From positions 1-64,000 of the forward strand of contig JAFPWH010000021.1 in NCBI GenBank assembly GCA_017395065.1: a stretch of 64,000 bases of DNA. The letters run 5' to 3'. The position numbers and the translations under genes are program-made. The number at the start of each line of letters is the position of its first letter. The first letter of the stretch is position 1. The stretch comes from Clostridia bacterium (lineage in GTDB: Bacteria > Bacillota > Clostridia > Christensenellales > Aristaeellaceae). Positions 3,105-61,694 of this stretch are shown here, in pieces. The notes beneath the pieces were generated by a model. That model searched no databases, was not told where the DNA came from, and was given only the letters and a program-made list of their open reading frames with translations.

Positions 3105-5087
3105 TCAGCCTACTTCGCTTCCCGGGGCGAAGGCGCCGCCGTCCACGGTGAGCAGGCGGACGTTGCCGTTTTTGTCGTCCGCGCACAGGAGCATGCCTTC
3201 GCTGAAGATGCCCTTCATCTTGCGGGGCGGCAGGTTCTTTACGAGGATGACGGTCTTGCCCTGCATGTCCTCGGGCGTATAGTATTTGGCTATGCCGCTT
3301 AAGACCGTGCGGGTCTCTCCCCCACCGATGTCGAGCGTGGATTTTAGCAGCTTGTCGCTGCCCTCCACCTTTTCGCAGGCGACGATCTTCGCGGCGATCA
3401 GTTTGGTCTTGAAGAACTCGTCCACCGTCACGAGACCGTCTTCGCTCTTTGCGGGCGCGCTCTTTTCCGCCGGCTTTTCGGCAGGCTTTGCGGGCGCCTC
3501 CTGCGGTTTGCCGCCGCTTAGCGCCTCCAGTTCCTTTTGCACGTCCACGCGCGGGAACAGCGCCTGGCCCTTTTTGACCGTAAGGCCCGCGGGCAGCGCG
3601 CCGAACTTCTTTACGCTGTCCCAGGTTTTGAGCTTATCGTCGCTGACACCGAGCTGCTCGTAGATGCGCTCGGGCGTCGTGGGCATGACGGGATATATCT
3701 GAACGGCTATGCCGCGAACGCCTTCAGCCAATACGTACAGCACGGTCTTTAAGCGCGGCAGGCCCTCTTCGCTCTTTCCGAGCACCCAGGGCTGTGTGAT
3801 GTCGATATAGCGGTTGAGTTCGCCCACGAACTTCCAGATTTCGCCCAGCGCCAGCGAGAACTGAAGCTCGTTCATGTGCTTTTCGACCTGCGCGGGCAGC
3901 GCCTCGAACAGCTCGATAATGTGCCTGTCCGCCTCTTCGTAGGCGCCGGGCGCGGGCACTTCACCGCCGAAATACTTTTCGATCATGGCCACCGTGCGGC
4001 TGACCAGATTGCCCAGGTCGTTGGCCAGATCGGCGTTTATGCGGGTTAAGAAGGACTCGTTGGTGTAGTTGCCGTCCGAACCGAAGGGCATCTCGCGCAT
4101 CAGGTAATAGCGCAGCGCGTCCACGCCGTAGCGGGCCACGATGGGGCCGGGATAGACGACGTTGCCCTTGGATTTGCTCATCCTGTCCGCGCCGAAGAGC
4201 AGCCAGCCGTGGCCGAAGACCTGTTTGGGCAGGGGCAGCCCCAGCGCGTGCAGCATGATGGGCCAATAGATCGTATGGAAGCGCACGATCTCCTTGCCCA
4301 CGAGGTGCACGTCCGCGGGCCAGTACTTTTTGAACAGGCTGTCGTCTTCGCTCTGATAGCCGAGGGCGGTTATGTAGTTGCTCAGCGCGTCGATCCATAC
4401 GTAGACGGTGTGCTTGGGATCGAAGTCCACCGGAATGCCCCACTTGACGCTGGTGCGGCTGACGCACAGGTCCTGAAGGCCGGGGCGCAGGAAGTTGTTG
4501 AGCATTTCGTTCGCGCGGCTCGCGGGCTGAATGAAATCGGGATGCTCCTCGATGTAGCGGATCATCCAGTCCTGATACTTGCTCATGCGGAAGAAATAGC
4601 TCTCCTCCTTCATGGGCTGGCAGGGACGGCCGCAGTCGGGGCAGACCTTCTCGCCGTTCTTTTCGACCAGCTGCGTGGGCGTCCAGAAGCTCTCGCAGGG
4701 CGTGCAGTACATGCCTTCGTATTCGGCCTTGTAGATGTCTCCCTGATCGTAGAACTGTTTGAAGATCTTCTGCACGATGCGGATGTGCCTGTCCTGGGTG
4801 GTGCGGATGAAGTCGTCGTATTCGATGTTCATCAGCTTCCACAGGTCCTTGGTCTCGGCCACGATCTTGTCCACGTACTGTATGGGCGTGACGCCCGCCT
4901 CGGCGGCCTTGCGCTCGATCTTCTGGCCATGCTCGTCGGTGCCTGTCAGGAAATAGGTGTCGTAGCCGCACATCTTCTTGAAGCGGGTCATCGTGTCCGC
5001 CGCGACGGTGGTATATGTATGGCCGATGGTCATATTGCCCGAGGGGTAATAGATCGGCGTGGTTATATAAAACGTAGGCTTATTCAA
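3105..5087 (-). CDS. metG: Methionyl-tRNA synthetase with C-terminal tRNA-binding domain
   Basis: A 660-residue class I synthetase that charges tRNA-Met. The HIGH-type signature is TIGH (residues 20-23) and the KMSKS loop is DRMSKSKGN. A zinc knuckle with CTPC and CPDCGRPC lies in the connective domain. A Pro/Ala/Lys-rich linker (about 530-560) leads to an EMAP-II/Trbp111-like OB fold (VDEFFKTKLIAAKIV...), so the dimerising tRNA-binding module is fused as in many Firmicutes. The start is a TTG with GAGGTG upstream. It is a single-gene unit with a near-consensus promoter and a strong terminator; no T-box leader is present in the short 5' region. Confidence 0.97.
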   Translation of the reverse strand: MNKPTFYITTPIYYPSGNMTIGHTYTTVAADTMTRFKKMCGYDTYFLTGTDEHGQKIERKAAEAGVTPIQYVDKIVAETKDLWKLMNIEYDDFIRTTQDRHIRIVQKIFKQFYDQGDIYKAEYEGMYCTPCESFWTPTQLVEKNGEKVCPDCGRPCQPMKEESYFFRMSKYQDWMIRYIEEHPDFIQPASRANEMLNNFLRPGLQDLCVSRTSVKWGIPVDFDPKHTVYVWIDALSNYITALGYQSEDDSLFKKYWPADVHLVGKEIVRFHTIYWPIMLHALGLPLPKQVFGHGWLLFGADRMSKSKGNVVYPGPIVARYGVDALRYYLMREMPFGSDGNYTNESFLTRINADLANDLGNLVSRTVAMIEKYFGGEVPAPGAYEEADRHIIELFEALPAQVEKHMNELQFSLALGEIWKFVGELNRYIDITQPWVLGKSEEGLPRLKTVLYVLAEGVRGIAVQIYPVMPTTPERIYEQLGVSDDKLKTWDSVKKFGALPAGLTVKKGQALFPRVDVQKELEALSGGKPQEAPAKPAEKPAEKSAPAKSEDGLVTVDEFFKTKLIAAKIVACEKVEGSDKLLKSTLDIGGGETRTVLSGIAKYYTPEDMQGKTVILVKNLPPRKMKGIFSEGMLLCADDKNGNVRLLTVDGGAFAPGSEVG

Positions 5088-5236: not shown

Positions 5237-5950
5237 ATGGGCAGAATGGGCGATACGATACGGCAAAACCGCATCAAATACAAAATGACCGAAAAACAGC
5301 TGGCCAAAAAGACGGGGCTGGCCGAAAGCGTGATCAAGGATTTCGAGTCCGGCAAACGCATTCCCTCGGACGATCAGGCGCGGCGCATCCTGAAGGCGAT
5401 GGGCGCAGCGGACACGGTCAGCACCGAGATCGACAGCGCAAACGAGCCGGAGGTAAAGCTCAGGCCCCGGCCGAGACCCTACATCATCCCGGTCGAGCCG
5501 GACGAGCCCGAACCGACGCCGCAGGAGATAAAAGCCCAGACAGAGAGCAACGACGCCTGGCTGGACGCGCTGGGCGGCGTGGTAAAGCGCATCCCAGTCG
5601 TCGACGAAAACGGGCTGGTGATGGATCACATGCTCTTCCCCGTGACGGGCGGAAAGATCGAAGGCGGACAGCCGGACAAGGTGATCCTTTTCCGCGTCGC
5701 GGACGAGGAGATGGGCGGCTTCCGCATCCACGCGGGCGACGTTTTGCTCATCGTGCCGGACAAGACGCCCGTGGACGACGCGTTCATGCTGATAAGCGCA
5801 AACGGAAAACGCAGGCTGCGCAGGGTGAAAAAACTGGACGGTTCGAAGCTTCTGCTTCAGTCCTACGACCGGGAGATCAAAGTGGAGACCCGCCTCTGGG
5901 CCGAGGTGCAGTTTCTGGGCCGCTGCGTAAAGCTGATCCGCGCGCTGTAG
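5237..5950 (+). CDS. XRE-family regulator with a degenerate S24/LexA-like C-terminal domain
   Basis: A 237-residue protein. Residues 5-57 form a Cro/CI helix-turn-helix (MTEKQLAKKTGLAESVIKDF). A Pro/Glu-rich linker (about 75-100) joins it to a C-terminal domain with the layout of the LexA/CI self-cleaving fold: FRVADEEMGGFRIHAGDVLLIV, then an RRLRRVKKL strand. In active S24 proteins the first block is G-D-S-M with a catalytic Ser; here the matching place is DEEM, so the Ser is missing. The domain may act as a non-proteolytic sensor or dimeriser. The ATG at 5237 follows GGAGGG; the frame is open further upstream but that part lies in the promoter. The DUF6273 gene follows 48 bases downstream and may be co-transcribed. 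Confidence 0.8.
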   Translation: MGRMGDTIRQNRIKYKMTEKQLAKKTGLAESVIKDFESGKRIPSDDQARRILKAMGAADTVSTEIDSANEPEVKLRPRPRPYIIPVEPDEPEPTPQEIKAQTESNDAWLDALGGVVKRIPVVDENGLVMDHMLFPVTGGKIEGGQPDKVILFRVADEEMGGFRIHAGDVLLIVPDKTPVDDAFMLISANGKRRLRRVKKLDGSKLLLQSYDREIKVETRLWAEVQFLGRCVKLIRAL

Positions 5951-51108: not shown

Positions 51109-51142
51109 ATATATGAATAACCATACCTACGGGAGGAAACGC

Positions 51143-54121
51143 ATGCGAAAGGTAAAAGGCTTTGCGTTCGGGCTGTTGCTTGTTGTGACGGTCTGTTTGC
51201 TCTGCGGCTGCGGTCCCGAAGACGACTCCACCGACGATCTGCTCATCAACGTGGACGTGCCCTTTTCCACGATGGGCGTGCTCTCCACGCCCGCCGCGAT
51301 CCAATTAAGCGGCTGGTTCGGCGAAACGGTCACGATCGACGAAGACGAATATACGGTACTGAACCAGAAGGACATCGGCACGCCGGTCGAAAAGCTGCAG
51401 ACGCGCCTGATCGAGCTTGGCTATCTGTCCAACGAAAAGAGCGCAAGCACCGGCAAGCTCAAGCGCGTCACCGGCAAATTCGACGCGGCGACGCAGCAGG
51501 CGGTGGAGAAATTCGAGGCGGCCTACGGGCAGACGCCAAGCGGCGTGGCCACGGAGCTGATGCAGTACTATCTATACAAAACCGACGCGACGCCCTACAG
51601 CGCCGCCGTGACGGCGACGCCCACCGCGACGCCCGTTCCGTACGCCACCGCGCGCACGTACCGCTACCTGCAAAGGGGCGACAGCGGCGACGACGTGAAG
51701 GCGCTTCAGCAGCGCCTTTACGAGCTCGGCTACCTGAGCTTCGTAAGCGGCGAATACGACACGGCGACGGAAAAGGCGGTCAAGCTGTTCGGCTCGGCCT
51801 ATTATAAGGATACCAACGGAAACGCGACGATCGAATTGCAAAAGGCGCTGTTCTCGCAAAGCGCAAAGACGTATTCCGAAATGCTCGCGTCCGTCACCCC
51901 CACGCCCTCGCCCACGCCGACGGCCGATCCTTACGCAGGCTACACGGCGCTCAAAGAAGGCGATCACGGCGCGCAGGTGACGCAGTTGCAAAAGCGCCTG
52001 CGCGAGCTGGGCTATATGCACACGACCGCGGACGGCATCTACGGCGAAAGGACGGTCACGGCGGTCAAAAAGTTCGAGGCCGCCTACGGAAGGCCGGAAA
52101 CGGGCGTGGCGACAGTCGCGCTGCAGGCAGTGCTGTTCTCAGACGACGCGCTCAGGTACGGCGAAGTTACGCCGACGCCTGCCTTTACCTTCACCCCCAC
52201 GCCCACGCCCGCGCCGGCGTATACGCTGCTGAGCACCGGCTCGATGGGTGAGGACGTGCGAAGGCTTCAGTTGAGGCTGATCGAGCTCGGTTATTTAAGC
52301 GGCGAGGCGGACGGCGAATACGGCAGCATGACGCGCCGCGCCGTGGAAGCGTTCGAGCAGGCCTACGGCCAGCCCGCAACCGGCGTCGCCACGACTACGC
52401 TTCAGCAGTACCTGTTCTCCGACAGCGCGCTGCCCAATCCCAACGCCACCGCTACGCCCAGGAACGTCGGTTACGCGGATCTGAATCCCGGTTCCTACGG
52501 GCAGGAAGTGAGCGATCTGCAGGGGCGGCTGATGGAGCTTGGCTACTATGACGGCGAAGTCAGCGGTTACTACGACGAGCAGACCGCCGAGGCCGTAAAG
52601 CTGTTCGAAGCGGCCTACGGTAAGCCCATGACCGGCATCGCGACGAGCGCGCTGCAGGTGTTTCTGTACCGCACCGACGCAAAAGTGAACGTGACGCCCA
52701 CGCCCGCGCCGTCCTACGCGCAGCTTCAAAAAGGCGACAAGGGCGACGAGGTCAAGCGCCTTCAGACCCGCCTGGTGGAGCTCGGCTATCTGAGCGGCAC
52801 CGTGGACGGCTATTACGGCGAAGGCACCGCGCTCGCGGTAAGATACTTCGAGGCCGCCTACGGCAGGGCGCAAACCGGCATCGCCACGGGCGAACTGCAG
52901 GCGACGCTGTATTCGTCAAACGCCAGAAGGAACACGAGCGGCAACGTCGCCGTAAGCTATTCCACGCTCAAGATCGGCGACAGCGGAAACGGCGTGACGG
53001 CGCTGCAAAACCGCCTGATCGCGCTGGGCTACATGAACGGCTCGGCCTCCGGCAGCTACAACAACCGCACGGTGAACGCCGTGAAGGCCTTCCAGAAGCT
53101 GATGGGTCTCAGCGTAAACGGCGCGGCTTCGAGCGAGCTTCAGCAAAGGCTGTTCTCCTCCGGCGCGAAGCGCTTTTCGGAAGAAAAGATCGTTTCCGTA
53201 AACAAGCCTGCGAAGGTCAGCGCCTCCTCGACCGGCGTGTACGAATCGTTGTACGACAACAATCCCTCGATCACCATCCCCCGCGGGACACAGCTTACCG
53301 TGCTCAGGACCCGCGGCATCTGGGCAGAGGTCAGCAACGCCGGCGGCAGCGTGGGCTACGTCATGCTGTCCGATCTGGAATACGTGAGCAGTTCGACGCC
53401 CACCCCGGCGCCCACGGCGAAGACGACCTCCGTGAACAGACCCGCCGTCATCAGCAAGGATTCCGTGACCGTGTACGAAGGTGCCTCTTCGAGTGCAAGA
53501 AAGATGGGCACGCTCAACAAGGGCTTTCAGGTGTTCTGGGTATCCACGACGGGCGAATGGGCGCAGATCCGCAACAACGCGGGCACGATGACCGGCTACG
53601 TCAAGAGCTCTCAGTTGATCTTTTACGAGGCGCCAAGCGCGAGCGGGGATTTCAAGCCCCTTTCGAACGGCAGCACGGGCGACGACGTCAAGCGCCTGCA
53701 GTCGCGCCTGAAGGAGCTGGACTACTATTACGGCGACATCGGCGGCAACTACCTGACGCGCACCACGGCAGCCGTCAAGCTGTTCCAGCAGGAGATCGGC
53801 ATCACGGCGGACGGAAAGGCGACGTCCGGCCTGCAGGACATACTGTTTTGCAGCTACGCCCCGACGCACAAGACCTACAGCCGCAGCGAAAAGAGCTACA
53901 GCGACATGTACTCCGGCCGCAGCGACAGCGCGGTAACGGATTTTCAGAATCTGCTCAAGCGCCTCGGCTACCTCTCAAGCGTAAGCGGCACGTACGACAG
54001 CGCCACCGTGAAAGCGGTAAAGCAGGTGCAGACGAAGCTGGGTATGAGAGACACGAGCGGCATCGCCACGAAGGAGCTTCAGGCGTTTTTGTTCAAGGCG
54101 GGAGATCTGATCAAAAAATAG
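51143..54121 (+). CDS. Lipoprotein with nine peptidoglycan-binding repeats and two SH3 domains
   Basis: A 992-residue surface protein. The signal peptide ends in a lipobox (CLLCGC, lipidated Cys about residue 24). Seven PG_binding_1 units of about 75 residues follow (G-x-x-V-x-x-L-Q-x-R-L-x-E-L-G-Y ... AAYG ... G-x-A-T-x-x-L-Q), joined by Thr/Pro/Ala-rich linkers (TATPTATPVP, TPTPSPTPTADP). Then come two bacterial SH3 domains (about 690-830; GVYESLYDN... and VTVYEGASSSARKMG) and two more PG-binding units. No catalytic domain is present, so it is probably a wall anchor or scaffold. The ATG at 51143 follows GGGAGGAAAC; an earlier ATG at 51113 is directly after the -10 box and lacks a ribosome site. 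Confidence 0.88.
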   Translation: MRKVKGFAFGLLLVVTVCLLCGCGPEDDSTDDLLINVDVPFSTMGVLSTPAAIQLSGWFGETVTIDEDEYTVLNQKDIGTPVEKLQTRLIELGYLSNEKSASTGKLKRVTGKFDAATQQAVEKFEAAYGQTPSGVATELMQYYLYKTDATPYSAAVTATPTATPVPYATARTYRYLQRGDSGDDVKALQQRLYELGYLSFVSGEYDTATEKAVKLFGSAYYKDTNGNATIELQKALFSQSAKTYSEMLASVTPTPSPTPTADPYAGYTALKEGDHGAQVTQLQKRLRELGYMHTTADGIYGERTVTAVKKFEAAYGRPETGVATVALQAVLFSDDALRYGEVTPTPAFTFTPTPTPAPAYTLLSTGSMGEDVRRLQLRLIELGYLSGEADGEYGSMTRRAVEAFEQAYGQPATGVATTTLQQYLFSDSALPNPNATATPRNVGYADLNPGSYGQEVSDLQGRLMELGYYDGEVSGYYDEQTAEAVKLFEAAYGKPMTGIATSALQVFLYRTDAKVNVTPTPAPSYAQLQKGDKGDEVKRLQTRLVELGYLSGTVDGYYGEGTALAVRYFEAAYGRAQTGIATGELQATLYSSNARRNTSGNVAVSYSTLKIGDSGNGVTALQNRLIALGYMNGSASGSYNNRTVNAVKAFQKLMGLSVNGAASSELQQRLFSSGAKRFSEEKIVSVNKPAKVSASSTGVYESLYDNNPSITIPRGTQLTVLRTRGIWAEVSNAGGSVGYVMLSDLEYVSSSTPTPAPTAKTTSVNRPAVISKDSVTVYEGASSSARKMGTLNKGFQVFWVSTTGEWAQIRNNAGTMTGYVKSSQLIFYEAPSASGDFKPLSNGSTGDDVKRLQSRLKELDYYYGDIGGNYLTRTTAAVKLFQQEIGITADGKATSGLQDILFCSYAPTHKTYSRSEKSYSDMYSGRSDSAVTDFQNLLKRLGYLSSVSGTYDSATVKAVKQVQTKLGMRDTSGIATKELQAFLFKAGDLIKK

Positions 54122-57988: not shown

Positions 57989-58276
57989 ATGTACGAGGAC
58001 AAGACTCTGATCTGCAAGGATTGCGGCAAGGAATTCATCTTCTCTGCCGGTGAGCAGGCGTTCTACGCCGAGAAGGGTTTCCAGAACGAGCCCACCCGCT
58101 GCAAGGACTGCCGTAACGCCCGCAAGGCCGCGCGCAACAACGCCGGCGGTGAGCGCGAGATGTTCGAGACCGTGTGCGCCGAGTGCGGCAAGCCCACTCG
58201 CGTGCCCTTCATCCCGAAGAGCGACCGTCCCATCTACTGCAGTGAGTGCTACGCGGCCAAGATGCAGCATCAGTAA
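57989..58276 (+). CDS. Double zinc-ribbon protein (CxxC motifs)
   Basis: A 95-residue protein with two zinc-ribbon halves: CKDCGKEFIFSAGEQAFYAEKGF...CKDC and CAECGKPTRVPFIPKSDRPIYCSEC. The first matches the zinc-ribbon type with the F-S-x-G-E-Q-x-F-Y signature. Such proteins are frequent in Clostridia; their function is not known, though RNA or nucleic acid binding is plausible. The Shine-Dalgarno sequence (GGGGG) is placed about 10 bases before the ATG. It is preceded by the structured RNA leader. Confidence 0.85.
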   Translation: MYEDKTLICKDCGKEFIFSAGEQAFYAEKGFQNEPTRCKDCRNARKAARNNAGGEREMFETVCAECGKPTRVPFIPKSDRPIYCSECYAAKMQHQ

Positions 58277-58297: not shown

Positions 58298-58345
58298 AAA
58301 GGGGCTGCCGTGGATCTTGCGATCCTGCGGCAGCCCCTTTGTATC
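58298..58345. terminator. Bidirectional terminator after the zinc-ribbon gene
   Basis: A perfect 13-bp stem, AAAGGGGCTGCCG (58298-58310) with CGGCAGCCCCTTT (58328-58340). It lies between two convergent units and can serve both. Confidence 0.9.
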
Positions 58346-58362: not shown

Positions 58363-61158
58363 TCAGATGTCGGTGTCTGTTGCGGGCACGGCCTCTTCGG
58401 GGGCCTCTTCCCAGCCGTAATCGGCATCATATTCGTCGTAATCGTATTCGTCGTAGCTGTAATCGAAATAGTCGACGGGCTTGTAGTCCGGGCTGTAATA
58501 GGTCGAACCGCTGAATCGCACGCGGCAGCGCTGGGTCTCGATGCTGTTGTAGCCGCAGTCGCGGATGGTCACGTTGTTGAACTCTGTGCCCTCGCAGTCG
58601 CTGACCACGGCGGCGTACATGCTGCATTCGTAGATCTCGCTGTCGTTTACATGGATGTCCCTGCTGCCGAAGGCGTTCACGCCGTTTACGCCGCAGCCGT
58701 ACAGCTCGCAGTTGCTCAGCGTGCACTCTTCGCAGCCCATGAAGGAGACGACGTCGCCGGTGCAGCTGCCCGCGCCCTTGACGTGGCCAAGCACCAGGTT
58801 TTCGACGGTGACGCGGCTGCAGTACTTGAAGGACAGCACGTCCGCCGAGCGGGGCATGAGCTCCATGTTGGTTTTGCCTTCGACGCCCACGATCCTGAGG
58901 TTGTCCGCGCCGATGATCACGAGGCCGTAGCCGTCGTAGCAGTGCGTCCAGTAGTAGTTCTCGCCGCCGTCTTTGCCGTAGGACGCGCAGGCGGAAATCT
59001 CGTAGTCGTCGCCGTCCAGGTAGATCACGCAGTCGTCGCCCAGGCATTTGAGCAGTTCGTCGACGTTAGAAACGTGATACTCTGTCGTGCCGTCGCTGCG
59101 CTTTATGCCCTCGGGTCTCTCGGAGACGGGCAGGGTCTGCTTGTCGAGCGGGAATTCGGCCAGCTGCATGCTTTCAAGCGCCTTCGCGTCCAGCTTTTCG
59201 CCGTCGAGGCCGAGCACGCCGTCATATTCGGGACCGAACCAGTCGGAGCGCAGCGCGTTGTCTTTGAATTCACAGCTGTCGACCGTGACGTTGTCGCCGT
59301 AGATCCAGAAGCCGGAGTAAAAGCGGTTGTCGTGAATGCTGCAGCCCGCGATCGTAAGTCCGAGCGTGTTGGAGGAATCGACGAAGCTGTCCACATGGTT
59401 GTTGTAGATGGCGGTATTGTAGATGCCAAGGAACGTCGTGTTGCAGGTCTCGATCAGCCAGAGGCCGGCAAAGCCTTCGTGCGCCTGGCAGTCGTGGAAT
59501 TCGCATCCGTTGAAGGTCACGTCGTAGCTGTCGGAAATGTCGATCGCGCCCTGCGTGCACTCCTTGATGACGGTGTTTTCGCAGCGCAGCTTCCAGCACC
59601 CGCTGACCTGAATGCCGACCGTGCCACAGCCGAAGAGCACGCTGTCACTGATACTGACGTTCCGGCAGCCGTAGAGGTTGATGACCGCGCCCTGGCAGGC
59701 GTCCGGCAGCACGGTGTGGCCGCAGGTGATTCCGGAAATGCTCACGTCGTTTGCGCCGATCAGGCGCAGTACCGCTGCGTTCCTCGGGCGGGTGACGATG
59801 GAGACTTCCTCCGCGCCGCCTTCGCCCTCGATGGTCAGGTTGTGGACGACGTCGAGCACCAGCTGGAAATCGCCGTCGTAGCAGTCTTCCCAGTAGTAGT
59901 TCGTGCCCTGCGCGCTACCGTAGCCAGCGGACGAGGACAGGTCGTATTCGCCGGGGGCGAGGACGATCTTTCTGTCGCTGCCGATGGCGGCGATGAATTC
60001 GTCGACGTCGGTTACGCGGATGGTCTCATAGACGGCTTCTGCGGCGGCCCCGTTCTGATCGGCGTCGGAGCTTGCCCTTGCCGGGCCGAGCACGAACGCG
60101 CAGCCCAGGATCGATATCAGTGCGGCGAGGCTAAGCGCCAGCGCCTGTTTTCCGAGTTTTTTGAATGTCATGATTTGTACCAGCCTTTCTTTTAAATCGC
60201 GCTTCTGCGTGGTGAAGCTTACCGCGATGACGCGGCGGGGAAGCGCTCTTTCGGCGGCGAGGTTCAGTAAAAGCTCGCCATAGGATTGTTTGTCTTGCCT
60301 GTCCATGCGCTTGAGCAGCCTTTGATCACAGCTCAGTTCGCAATACAGCGTCGTCTGCGTCCTGAACAGGTATACCAGGGGATTGAACCAATGGGCGGAA
60401 TAGACCAGCGTCTGAAGCCATTTGATCGCAAGATCGCCCCTGCGGTAATGGGTGAGCTCGTGCCTTAAGATCCGGTCGAGGTCCTCGGACGAATATTCGC
60501 GGTCCGGCAGCACAATCACCGGCCTGATCAGCCCGAGCAGCACGGTGGTGCTCACCTTGTCGCTGCGGTAAAGCGCGGGAAAGGGCGAAGCGTTCAGCGC
60601 GTTCAGCACGGAGCTGTCCAGGGGCTGCGCGGGCTTGAGGGTCCTGTAGAGCAGGCGCCTGAAGCGGGCAAAGCTTAAAAGCGTTCCGCAAAAGCTGATA
60701 AGCGCGCCGGCCAGCCACAGATAAAACCAGAACTCATAGCTTCTGTACAGTGGAAGCCTGTCCGGCCGGGCAGCAACGGTTCCCGACGACGTTTGATCGG
60801 CTTTTTCGGCATTGGGCTCGGTTAGTGCTTCAGCTGTATCCGAGCGTTCGCGCAGGTTTTTATTGACTTCCTCGCGGGTCAGAAGGCCCTCCGTGCGGTT
60901 GTAGGGGGATGCGTAGAGCCCCGCTTCGTAATCGCTGTCCCGGGCAGCGGTTTCGACCGCCGGCGCGTCCTTCAGAAAGCTCGGTCCGACAATGCCCTGC
61001 AGCGGCAGGCAAAAGCGCAGTATCACCAGCGCCCAGCAAAGGTAGAGAAAGCCGCTCGAAAGCTTCTTTTTGCCGACCTTTGCAAGGAGCATCACGATCA
61101 GCCCCAGCGCGCTTCCGGCCAGCGTAAGAGAGAGCAATGTATACAGGAATCGTGCCAT
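58363..61158 (-). CDS. M56 (BlaR1/MecR1-type) metalloprotease receptor fused to two beta-helix modules
   Basis: A 931-residue membrane protein. Residues 1-360 are a BlaR1-like unit: membrane segments at about 5-27, 36-58, 141-163 and 339-358, the zinc protease motif HELTH (233-237) with YCELSCD (E274) as further ligand, and RDLKERLVQIM, typical of the family. In BlaR1 the fourth helix leads to an outside penicillin-binding sensor. Here two right-handed parallel beta-helix modules take that place (about 375-690 and 697-905). Each begins with a short alpha/beta lead (VDEFIAAIGSDRKIVLAPGEYDL; VDELLKCLGDDCVIYLDGDDYEI) and shares NYYWxxCYDG, which points to internal duplication. A Tyr/Asp/Glu-rich tail ends the protein. 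It is coupled to the BlaI-type gene (1-base gap). The ligand is unknown; a polysaccharide is a reasonable guess. Confidence 0.88.
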   Translation of the reverse strand: MARFLYTLLSLTLAGSALGLIVMLLAKVGKKKLSSGFLYLCWALVILRFCLPLQGIVGPSFLKDAPAVETAARDSDYEAGLYASPYNRTEGLLTREEVNKNLRERSDTAEALTEPNAEKADQTSSGTVAARPDRLPLYRSYEFWFYLWLAGALISFCGTLLSFARFRRLLYRTLKPAQPLDSSVLNALNASPFPALYRSDKVSTTVLLGLIRPVIVLPDREYSSEDLDRILRHELTHYRRGDLAIKWLQTLVYSAHWFNPLVYLFRTQTTLYCELSCDQRLLKRMDRQDKQSYGELLLNLAAERALPRRVIAVSFTTQKRDLKERLVQIMTFKKLGKQALALSLAALISILGCAFVLGPARASSDADQNGAAAEAVYETIRVTDVDEFIAAIGSDRKIVLAPGEYDLSSSAGYGSAQGTNYYWEDCYDGDFQLVLDVVHNLTIEGEGGAEEVSIVTRPRNAAVLRLIGANDVSISGITCGHTVLPDACQGAVINLYGCRNVSISDSVLFGCGTVGIQVSGCWKLRCENTVIKECTQGAIDISDSYDVTFNGCEFHDCQAHEGFAGLWLIETCNTTFLGIYNTAIYNNHVDSFVDSSNTLGLTIAGCSIHDNRFYSGFWIYGDNVTVDSCEFKDNALRSDWFGPEYDGVLGLDGEKLDAKALESMQLAEFPLDKQTLPVSERPEGIKRSDGTTEYHVSNVDELLKCLGDDCVIYLDGDDYEISACASYGKDGGENYYWTHCYDGYGLVIIGADNLRIVGVEGKTNMELMPRSADVLSFKYCSRVTVENLVLGHVKGAGSCTGDVVSFMGCEECTLSNCELYGCGVNGVNAFGSRDIHVNDSEIYECSMYAAVVSDCEGTEFNNVTIRDCGYNSIETQRCRVRFSGSTYYSPDYKPVDYFDYSYDEYDYDEYDADYGWEEAPEEAVPATDTDI

Positions 61159-61159
61159 A

Positions 61160-61537
61160 TCAGTCTCCCTCCACTTTGAACATCTTTCTCAGTTCGTCTA
61201 TGTCGCCGCTCGTCAAGCCCTTTCCCTTGACCAGCGCGGCCACGAGTTCCTGCGCGTTTCCCTTGAACAGGCGGTTGACCATGTCGCCCGCTGCCCAGGC
61301 GTTGTATTCGTCGCGGCTCAGGCAGGGCAGATAATAAAATACTTCCCTTTTCTCCTGCCTGAGCACACCCTTTTCGCACAGGCGCCTGATCAGCGTTTTG
61401 ACCGTGGGATCGCTCCAGTCAAAGCGCGATTGCAGGGTTTTGCGTATGTCCGCAAGCGGCAGGGCGTCCCCCGCCTCCCACAGGACCTGCATGACTTCGA
61501 GCTCCGAAGCGGAAATTTTCTCGGCGAGATTTTTCAT
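61160..61537 (-). CDS. BlaI/MecI/CopY family repressor
   Basis: A 125-residue winged-helix repressor (ISASELEVMQVLWEAGDALPLADIRKTL; WSDPTVKTLIRRLCEKGVL; YYLPCLSRDEY). In known systems the M56 partner leads to cleavage of such a repressor. The ATG at 61537 follows GAGGAGG; the frame runs further upstream into the operator. It is the first gene of a two-gene operon with the M56 receptor. Confidence 0.93.
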   Translation of the reverse strand: MKNLAEKISASELEVMQVLWEAGDALPLADIRKTLQSRFDWSDPTVKTLIRRLCEKGVLRQEKREVFYYLPCLSRDEYNAWAAGDMVNRLFKGNAQELVAALVKGKGLTSGDIDELRKMFKVEGD

Positions 61538-61550
61538 GCTGTACCTCCTC

Positions 61551-61576
61551 ATACAGATGACGCGCGTCATCTGTAT
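61551..61576. promoter_or_regulatory. Operator: perfect 26-bp palindrome
   Basis: The half-site ATACAGATGACGC (61551-61563) is followed directly by its exact complement in reverse (61564-61576). It contains TACA...TGTA ends as in BlaI/MecI operators. It lies between the -10 box and the repressor's ribosome site, so binding would block its own operon. Confidence 0.85.
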
Positions 61577-61578
61577 AT

Positions 61579-61607
61579 ACTATAACACCGCAGGTGACAT
61601 ATGTCAA
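61579..61607 (-). promoter_or_regulatory. Sigma-A promoter of the BlaI-M56 operon with a second palindrome
   Basis: On minus TTGACA (61607-61602), 17-base spacer, TATAGT (61584-61579). A perfect palindrome TGACATATGTCA (61595-61606) covers the -35 box and may be a second repressor site. Confidence 0.8.
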
Positions 61608-61652: not shown

Positions 61653-61694
61653 ACAGAAAAGGCCGCCGCGAAACACTCCGTTCCGCGGCGGCCT
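61653..61694 (-). terminator. Terminator of aspS
   Basis: AGGCCGCCGCG (61660-61670) pairs with CGCGGCGGCCT (61684-61694); on minus it is followed by TTTTCTGT. Confidence 0.85.

Follow-up and report, generated by a model that had tools for sequence, protein, structure and literature searches.

We analysed a stretch of 64,000 nucleotides from a Clostridia bacterium (assembly GCA_017395065.1, contig JAFPWH010000021.1, positions 1 to 64,000 of the forward strand), which is called the window here; its genome, G000, is in 81 contigs. On the minus strand, the window holds a BlaI/MecI-type repressor gene and, starting one base after it, the gene of a BlaR1-type M56 receptor that continues beyond its last membrane helix into a duplicated beta-helix sensor. 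The frames of both genes are clean. The features of this locus are as follows (aa, amino acids; TM, transmembrane helix).

61160-61537, minus strand: BlaI/MecI-type repressor gene, 125 aa, ATG at 61537 with AGGAGG before it
58363-61158, minus strand: BlaR1-type M56 receptor gene, 931 aa, a single open frame
61579-61607, minus strand: promoter, TTGACA at 61602-61607, 17 bp, TATAGT at 61579-61584
61595-61606: operator 1, perfect dyad TGACATATGTCA, overlapping the -35 element
61551-61576: operator 2, palindrome ATACAGATGACGCGCGTCATCTGTAT, just past the -10 element
60175-61140, minus strand: Peptidase_M56 region, aa 7-328, TM1-TM3 and cytoplasmic gluzincin domain
60448-60462, minus strand: zinc site HELTH, aa 233-237, with E274 as further ligand
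60214-60219, minus strand: S314-F315, equivalent of the BlaR1 autocleavage bond by alignment with BlaR1
60088-60150, minus strand: TM4, aa 337-357, with lipobox AALISILGC, Cys353
59164-60030, minus strand: sensor module 1, about aa 377-665, right-handed beta-helix, NYYWEDCYDG, ladder H481-C488-C511-C534
58489-59085, minus strand: sensor module 2, about aa 692-890, right-handed beta-helix, NYYWTHCYDG, ladder H792-C799-C822-C845
58366-58467, minus strand: acidic, Tyr/Asp-rich C-terminal tail, aa 898-931, predicted disordered
58298-58340: strong hairpin between convergent gene ends, probably a terminator, U run weak
61660-61694, minus strand: terminator between aspS and the operon, scored by the consensus scan

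A preliminary description of this locus had coupled a BlaI-type repressor gene to an M56 receptor with HELTH, and profile matches bore this out for both genes. The repressor matched Pfam Penicillinase_R, with its winged-helix and dimerisation domain, over the full protein (2.3e-28, 99.3 bits against a cut-off of 22.6), and its best solved relative was MecI (1okr, E 1.4e-14, aa 2-120). On these matches it is assigned to the BlaI/MecI family (Penicillinase_R). The receptor matched Peptidase_M56 (1.4e-45, aa 7-328) and Beta_helix (2.1e-20, aa 469-576, in three stretches). Its full-length model comprised TM1-TM3, the cytoplasmic protease, TM4 and then the beta-helix sensor, with a variable first extracellular loop of low model confidence. 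Foldseek matched this model to the BlaR1 cryo-EM structures 8exp_A (E 1.6e-4) and 8exs_A (E 1.7e-4) with probability 1.00, at low TM-scores (0.26-0.28 on the target).

Alignment with Staphylococcus aureus BlaR1 placed H201, E202, H205, E242, Y261, F284 and R294 on H233, E234, H237, E274, Y293, F315 and R325 of the receptor, and S283 on S314; E242 is the glutamate ligand of BlaR1. These seven receptor residues had invariant equivalents in 37 of 37 aligned proteins in which an M56 protease is fused to the beta-helix sensor, and the P1 residue of the autocleavage position (S314 in the window) was Ser or Thr among them. The roles of the zinc residues, Tyr261, the autocleavage bond Ser283-Phe284 and Arg294 in S. 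aureus BlaR1 have been described (PMC9834060). With HExxH...E, four membrane helices, the autocleavage position, the Tyr and the Arg all present, and a fold match to BlaR1, we classify the protein as a BlaR1-type M56 receptor, for which protease activity and autocleavage are predicted.

The extracytoplasmic part after TM4 measures about 570 aa and sits where BlaR1 and MecR1 carry their penicillin-binding domain. The preliminary description had read it as a tandem, duplicated beta-helix; Pfam and AlphaFold2 both agreed. The NYYWxxCYDG motif was found exactly, at aa 420 (NYYWEDCYDG) and aa 734 (NYYWTHCYDG). The sensor is a duplicated module, because its two halves aligned with 66 identities in 187 positions (35%) and a score of 279, far over the shuffle maximum of 72. 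In the AlphaFold2 model of aa 377-931, made with an alignment of 79 relatives, there were two right-handed beta-helices and a disordered acidic tail (pLDDT 90, pTM 0.87). The VIA comparison matched this model to alginate lyase 6kfn (Z 25.4, 239 aligned, root mean square deviation 2.4) and AlgE4 epimerase (Z 23.9); PL6 alginate lyases, AlgE epimerases and phage tailspikes ranged over Z 22-25 at 9-17% identity. The top rows were nearly all glycan-active or phage-spike proteins, and module 1 accounts for the list. By their modelled fold, the sensor modules belong to the right-handed beta-helix superfamily (PF13229 type).

The preliminary description covered a single example. The architecture proved to be real, but it is not a one-off. 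A species-level genome scan gave 221 sensor relatives, and among the best 80 of them, from which fusions were counted, the M56-beta-helix fusion occurred in 49 further loci in 47 genomes (counted by accession prefix). Many of these genomes are titled Oscillospiraceae or Ruminococcaceae and many come from the ruminant gut. The M56 sites were intact across the fusions. BlaI adjoined the fusion in 40 of the 49 loci, several of the others ending at contig edges, and a search within 10 kb of the 49 fusions found no other conserved neighbour. All five other genus genomes searched had the fusion (58-71% identity over the matches, with partial copies in two contigs); one of them holds a second fused paralogue, and some genomes have two copies. 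Since the junction is kept in 49 other loci, a frame error is ruled out.

The homology of the pair to the bla/mec system might suggest that the receptor senses beta-lactams through a degenerate penicillin-binding domain, or that two genes were joined by artefact. We give this practically no weight and consider it refuted: Pfam and NCBIfam found no transpeptidase-like penicillin-binding sensor with SxxK in the receptor open reading frame, the C-terminal half folds as a beta-helix, and the same fusion stands in the other loci. The NCBIfam model blaR1_generic scored 95.9 bits against a cut-off of 400, with a match confined to aa 21-350. As this score is below the cut-off and covers the protease part only, the receptor is not a beta-lactam-sensing BlaR1 equivalog. 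No beta-lactamase or penicillin-binding protein target gene was found in the operon, and none formed a conserved neighbour family within 10 kb of the fusions.

The preliminary description also held that the operon contains no effector gene, and indeed it consists of the repressor and receptor genes alone. It ends after the receptor gene because the next gene (57989-58276) is convergent. The terminator claimed at this end is less certain than the operon end itself: the hairpin at 58298-58340 is very stable (-40.7 kcal/mol, z -7.2), but its U run is short and the consensus terminator scan gave it no score. Upstream, aspS lies beyond the scored terminator. Elsewhere in the window, 51113-54121 encodes a 1002-aa lipoprotein-like protein in which about eight repeats of peptidoglycan-binding type were read by eye, as well as PTPTP linkers and SH3-like stretches.

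The promoter, TTGACA-17-TATAGT, matches 11 of 12 consensus positions and has TG before the -10 element; genus relatives have the same layout. The palindrome at 61551-61576 had been proposed earlier as the operator. It stood as an operator, but not as the only one, since a second dyad, TGACATATGTCA at 61595-61606, overlaps the -35 element. The two lie 37 bp apart and have the core TGACnnnnGTCA in common; the palindrome core of operator 2 is given as TGACGCGCGTCA. The TACAnnTGTA-type dyads expected of the BlaI family are thus present at the window promoter, in operator 1 as TGACATATGTCA and in operator 2 through TGACnnnnGTCA. Four other genus genomes (G038, G073, G098 and G118) also have the operator pair with 37 bp spacing. 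Among 40 promoters of Oscillospiraceae fusions, 38 had the BlaI-type dyad [TG]ACAnnTGT[AC] (66 sites, often two at 37-41 bp), against a shuffled expectation of 0.66 promoters.

The genome was also scanned for further copies of the palindrome, as had been proposed, and in the strict scan the operator pair occurred once in G000. In ten Oscillospiraceae genomes, double sites of YKACANNTGTARNCT were found only before BlaI-M56-beta-helix operons, and the single sites inspected were intragenic or at the end of a contig. Counts of ATGACNNNNGTCAT were 1.3-4 times those of a reversed-pattern control (6 against 3 in G000), and the sites were mostly isolated. TTGACANNTGTCA in six genus genomes gave double sites at G038:C5 and G118:C136, with a related one at G098:C211. 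We rejected these as a regulon: they stand at Lon-type genes (two with a divergent TetR-type gene), have the fully symmetric TTGACAnnTGTCAA and were taken for another regulator's sites. Pairs of the TTGACAnnTGTCAA dyad about 39-40 bp apart stand where a TetR-type gene and a Lon protease gene diverge (L086, about 3221-3273; L085, about 5887-5938; L089, 5443), apparently a separate circuit. The strict operator scans of G000 and the ten Oscillospiraceae genomes therefore gave no evidence of a regulon in trans.

Autoregulation is strongly supported, because the conserved dyads stand at the operon's own promoter and the pair is confined to these operons in the strict scans. The preliminary description had left two options, targets elsewhere or regulation of the pair only; the latter is better on present evidence, with no operator pair found in trans, and the BlaI/M56 pair looks, from its operator sites, to be mainly self-regulating. 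A second BlaI/M56 pair was noticed in G000 (contig C50, L037 7814-9843), with a 551-aa receptor without a beta-helix and its own dyads, CTACAATAGTAG and CTACAAATGTAG. An extracytoplasmic function (ECF)-type sigma factor gene was seen upstream of some BlaI-M56-beta-helix operons (L240 1508-3126; L148 6389-6976), with a membrane partner gene in L240; in the clustering of neighbours, five loci share a gene of this kind.

The sensor module was also found outside the fusion. The non-fused remainder of the best 80 relatives were secreted or lipoprotein forms without the protease, and G000 itself has a stand-alone secreted beta-helix paralogue of 26% identity (contig C58, L036 8109-9860, minus strand), which by eye follows a hydrolase-like gene and a glycoside-hydrolase-family-20-like gene. 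In more distant Clostridia a single module was joined to SLH, Cu_amine_oxidN1, RCC1 or DUF5050 domains, or occurred as a lipoprotein. By these sequence matches it is an exported, often wall-associated module. On the sensor tree, fused and stand-alone forms interleave, with 12 changes, at least 11 of them forced by well-supported branches. On the M56 tree of 89 rows, the fusions need two changes and almost all fall in one group, with other M56 proteins of the window's family outside it. The engine is thus modular, since M56 fusions group together but the sensor module is seen both fused and alone. The sensor was present in 6 of 396 sampled genomes of the window's order and in 22 of 391 of the class sample; the fused gene was likely exchanged between lineages, or lost in many. 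No plasmid record covered 80% of the receptor, and no phage match was found for the sensor. In one locus (L167 8963-12979) the sensor module has been fused, apparently independently, to an M56 protein of another lineage, beside a distant BlaI and with different palindromes, GTTTAATGCATTAAAC.

The interleaving might mean that stand-alone secreted relatives are protein ligands, which pair with the receptor sensor and report the state of the envelope or of neighbours; in addition, the closest relative of the C58 paralogue on the sensor tree is a fused receptor (L041 in G098). However, repeated gene fission would give the same interleaving, and stand-alone and fused genes are neither co-localised nor linked by a shared operator. 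The BlaI-type dyad was found upstream of none of 28 stand-alone beta-helix genes, and these genes were rejected as repressor targets. A protein ligand therefore seems very improbable to us.

What the sensor binds may be read from its conserved residues and its fold. In 80 of 80 aligned sensors, W, R, GH, C, GCG and C were invariant in both modules, and W, R, H and the three Cys were the most conserved polar or aromatic residues. GH-x-C-x-GCG-x-C occurred twice in all 80 sensors and once in seven of eight single-module wall or secreted proteins. According to the DSSP string of the model, the ladder His and three Cys lie at or just past the third-strand end of successive coils. Being placed at the same turn, they should stack if the model is right. 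A sensor that reads metal (Cu, Zn, Fe), or the redox state by disulfide switching, would explain why the ladder is invariant and recurs at the same coil turn in both modules. It would also agree with a weak NosD Pfam match, and it has a precedent in PetR/PetP of Synechocystis, a BlaI-type regulator controlled by an M56 protease and acting on petE and petJ in trans in the copper response (PMC7896320). But ladders of like residues in beta-helices can be purely structural, the operon has no conserved neighbour that encodes a metal transporter or chaperone, and a distant homologue (L278) is without two of the ladder cysteines. We regard metal or redox sensing as rather unlikely, but as the main rival of a glycan ligand.

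The structural matches to alginate lyases, AlgE epimerases, tailspike depolymerases and pectate lyases, and the secreted stand-alone relatives including the one in G000, could also mean that the tandem acts as a polysaccharide lyase or epimerase for which the M56 protein is a tether, with signalling secondary. This is improbable in our view. An AlgE-like Asp-Pro-His catalytic motif was not seen among the conserved positions, in a comparison short of residue level, and sensing is suggested by the fusion to an intact M56 protease with an adjoining BlaI and conserved operators. The preliminary description had inferred an inducible system that senses a carbohydrate or wall polymer; inducibility and such a ligand are predictions here. 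The ligand that we favour, by a modest degree, is a glycan or envelope polymer. It fits the modelled beta-helix fold and the module's occurrence in exported proteins with SLH and Cu_amine_oxidN1 domains.

The best explanation of the locus is probably a self-regulating BlaI/M56 pair that senses the envelope. Without a signal, BlaI would shut its own promoter and little receptor would be present in the membrane. The beta-helix tandem would bind a ligand outside the cytoplasm, most likely a glycan of the envelope or the diet, and the change would be relayed via TM3 and TM4 to the M56 domain, which would cleave BlaI near the equivalent of MecI N101-F102 (Ala-Leu). The operon would then be derepressed and more receptor made, a positive feedback; targets in trans would be few or have weaker operators. 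As the least certain step, the sensor may be processed by Lgt and LspA and stay at the membrane as a lipoprotein.

Several observations weigh against this scheme. The scissile pair of MecI, N101-F102, aligns with A101-L102 in the window repressor and with A/S/T-L in its relatives; thus the N-F pair of MecI/BlaI is not conserved in the window repressor or the aligned relatives. Cleavage may still occur at A101-L102 or at another bond. A self-only regulon would be unusual among characterised BlaI systems. The regulon scans covered the strict consensus only, so weaker sites would be missed, and G000 is split over 81 contigs. A fold match alone does not show glycan binding, and no carbohydrate genes were conserved beside the fusions in the neighbour comparison of the 49 loci.

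The reason to consider the Lgt/LspA step is the outer end of TM4, AALISILGC353, a PS51257-type lipobox at an internal position in an outward-facing helix, where signal peptidase I cuts BlaR1. Such a lipobox stood at the TM4 end in 44 of 51 fusions, whose TM1-TM3 gave a single match. Of 33 M56 proteins from the window's own family, 32 of them without a beta-helix, 2 had it. It was also present in most of the non-fused M56 proteins that were checked in the Oscillospiraceae genomes of the fusions, which weakens the lipobox as a hallmark of the beta-helix fusion. Because the non-fused proteins carry it, the lipobox is a trait of an M56 protein class and not of the beta-helix sensor. A lipobox-ended TM4 was likewise seen in many clostridial M56 proteins irrespective of their sensor (e.g. 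L247, L250, L262 and L265). Its interest comes from BlaR1, which signal peptidase I (SpsB) cuts after Gly331 in the same post-TM4 linker (PMC9834060). Lipid anchoring and release of the sensor via the TM4 lipobox is a clear prediction from the sequence. A split receptor, in which TM4 serves as lipoprotein signal, Lgt and LspA part the sensor from the protease, and contact between the two membrane-bound parts controls BlaI cleavage, is possible but doubtful.

By the features tested, the window pair is of BlaR1 type and is expected to work like BlaR1, outside the beta-lactam-sensing equivalogs. With BlaR1/BlaI and MecR1/MecI of staphylococci and Bacillus licheniformis it shares a BlaI-type repressor, a four-helix M56 receptor with HExxH...E, Y and R, the S-F autocleavage position, an extracytoplasmic C-terminal sensor past TM4 and BlaI-type dyad operators. 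It differs in that a pair of beta-helix modules takes the place of the penicillin-binding domain as sensor, there is no beta-lactamase or PBP2a target, and the genes form a two-gene operon with its own promoter and not a divergon. Moreover, the repressor is without the N-F site of MecI, TM4 ends in a lipobox and the first extracellular loop is variable. PetR/PetP resembles the window pair in combining a BlaI-type regulator and an M56 protease with a non-beta-lactam signal, although the part of that account available mentions no beta-helix sensor (PMC7896320). PL6 alginate lyases, AlgE mannuronan epimerases and phage tailspikes share the fold of the sensor module, but they are enzymes or spikes, whereas the window modules sit on a signalling protease and carry the GH-C-GCG-C ladder. 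Closer in sequence signature are the clostridial single-module proteins with SLH, Cu_amine_oxidN1, RCC1 and DUF5050 (L279, L281-L283, L285 and L287), which belong to the same module family with GH-C-GCG-C; unlike in the window, the module is secreted or wall-associated alone there, without an M56 protease. Targeted literature searches of open-licence papers found no account of an M56-beta-helix protein.

With its conserved operators and aligned autocleavage site, the pair can be tested directly as a reporter system. The TM4 lipobox poses a concrete question of how M56 receptors mature; if true, a split receptor would be the lipoprotein counterpart of BlaR1 shedding by signal peptidase, and the same would hold for many clostridial M56 proteins. 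BlaR1 and MecR1 are usually taken as beta-lactam-specific. In about 50 species of gut clostridia, the repressor-protease engine bears a wholly different sensor.

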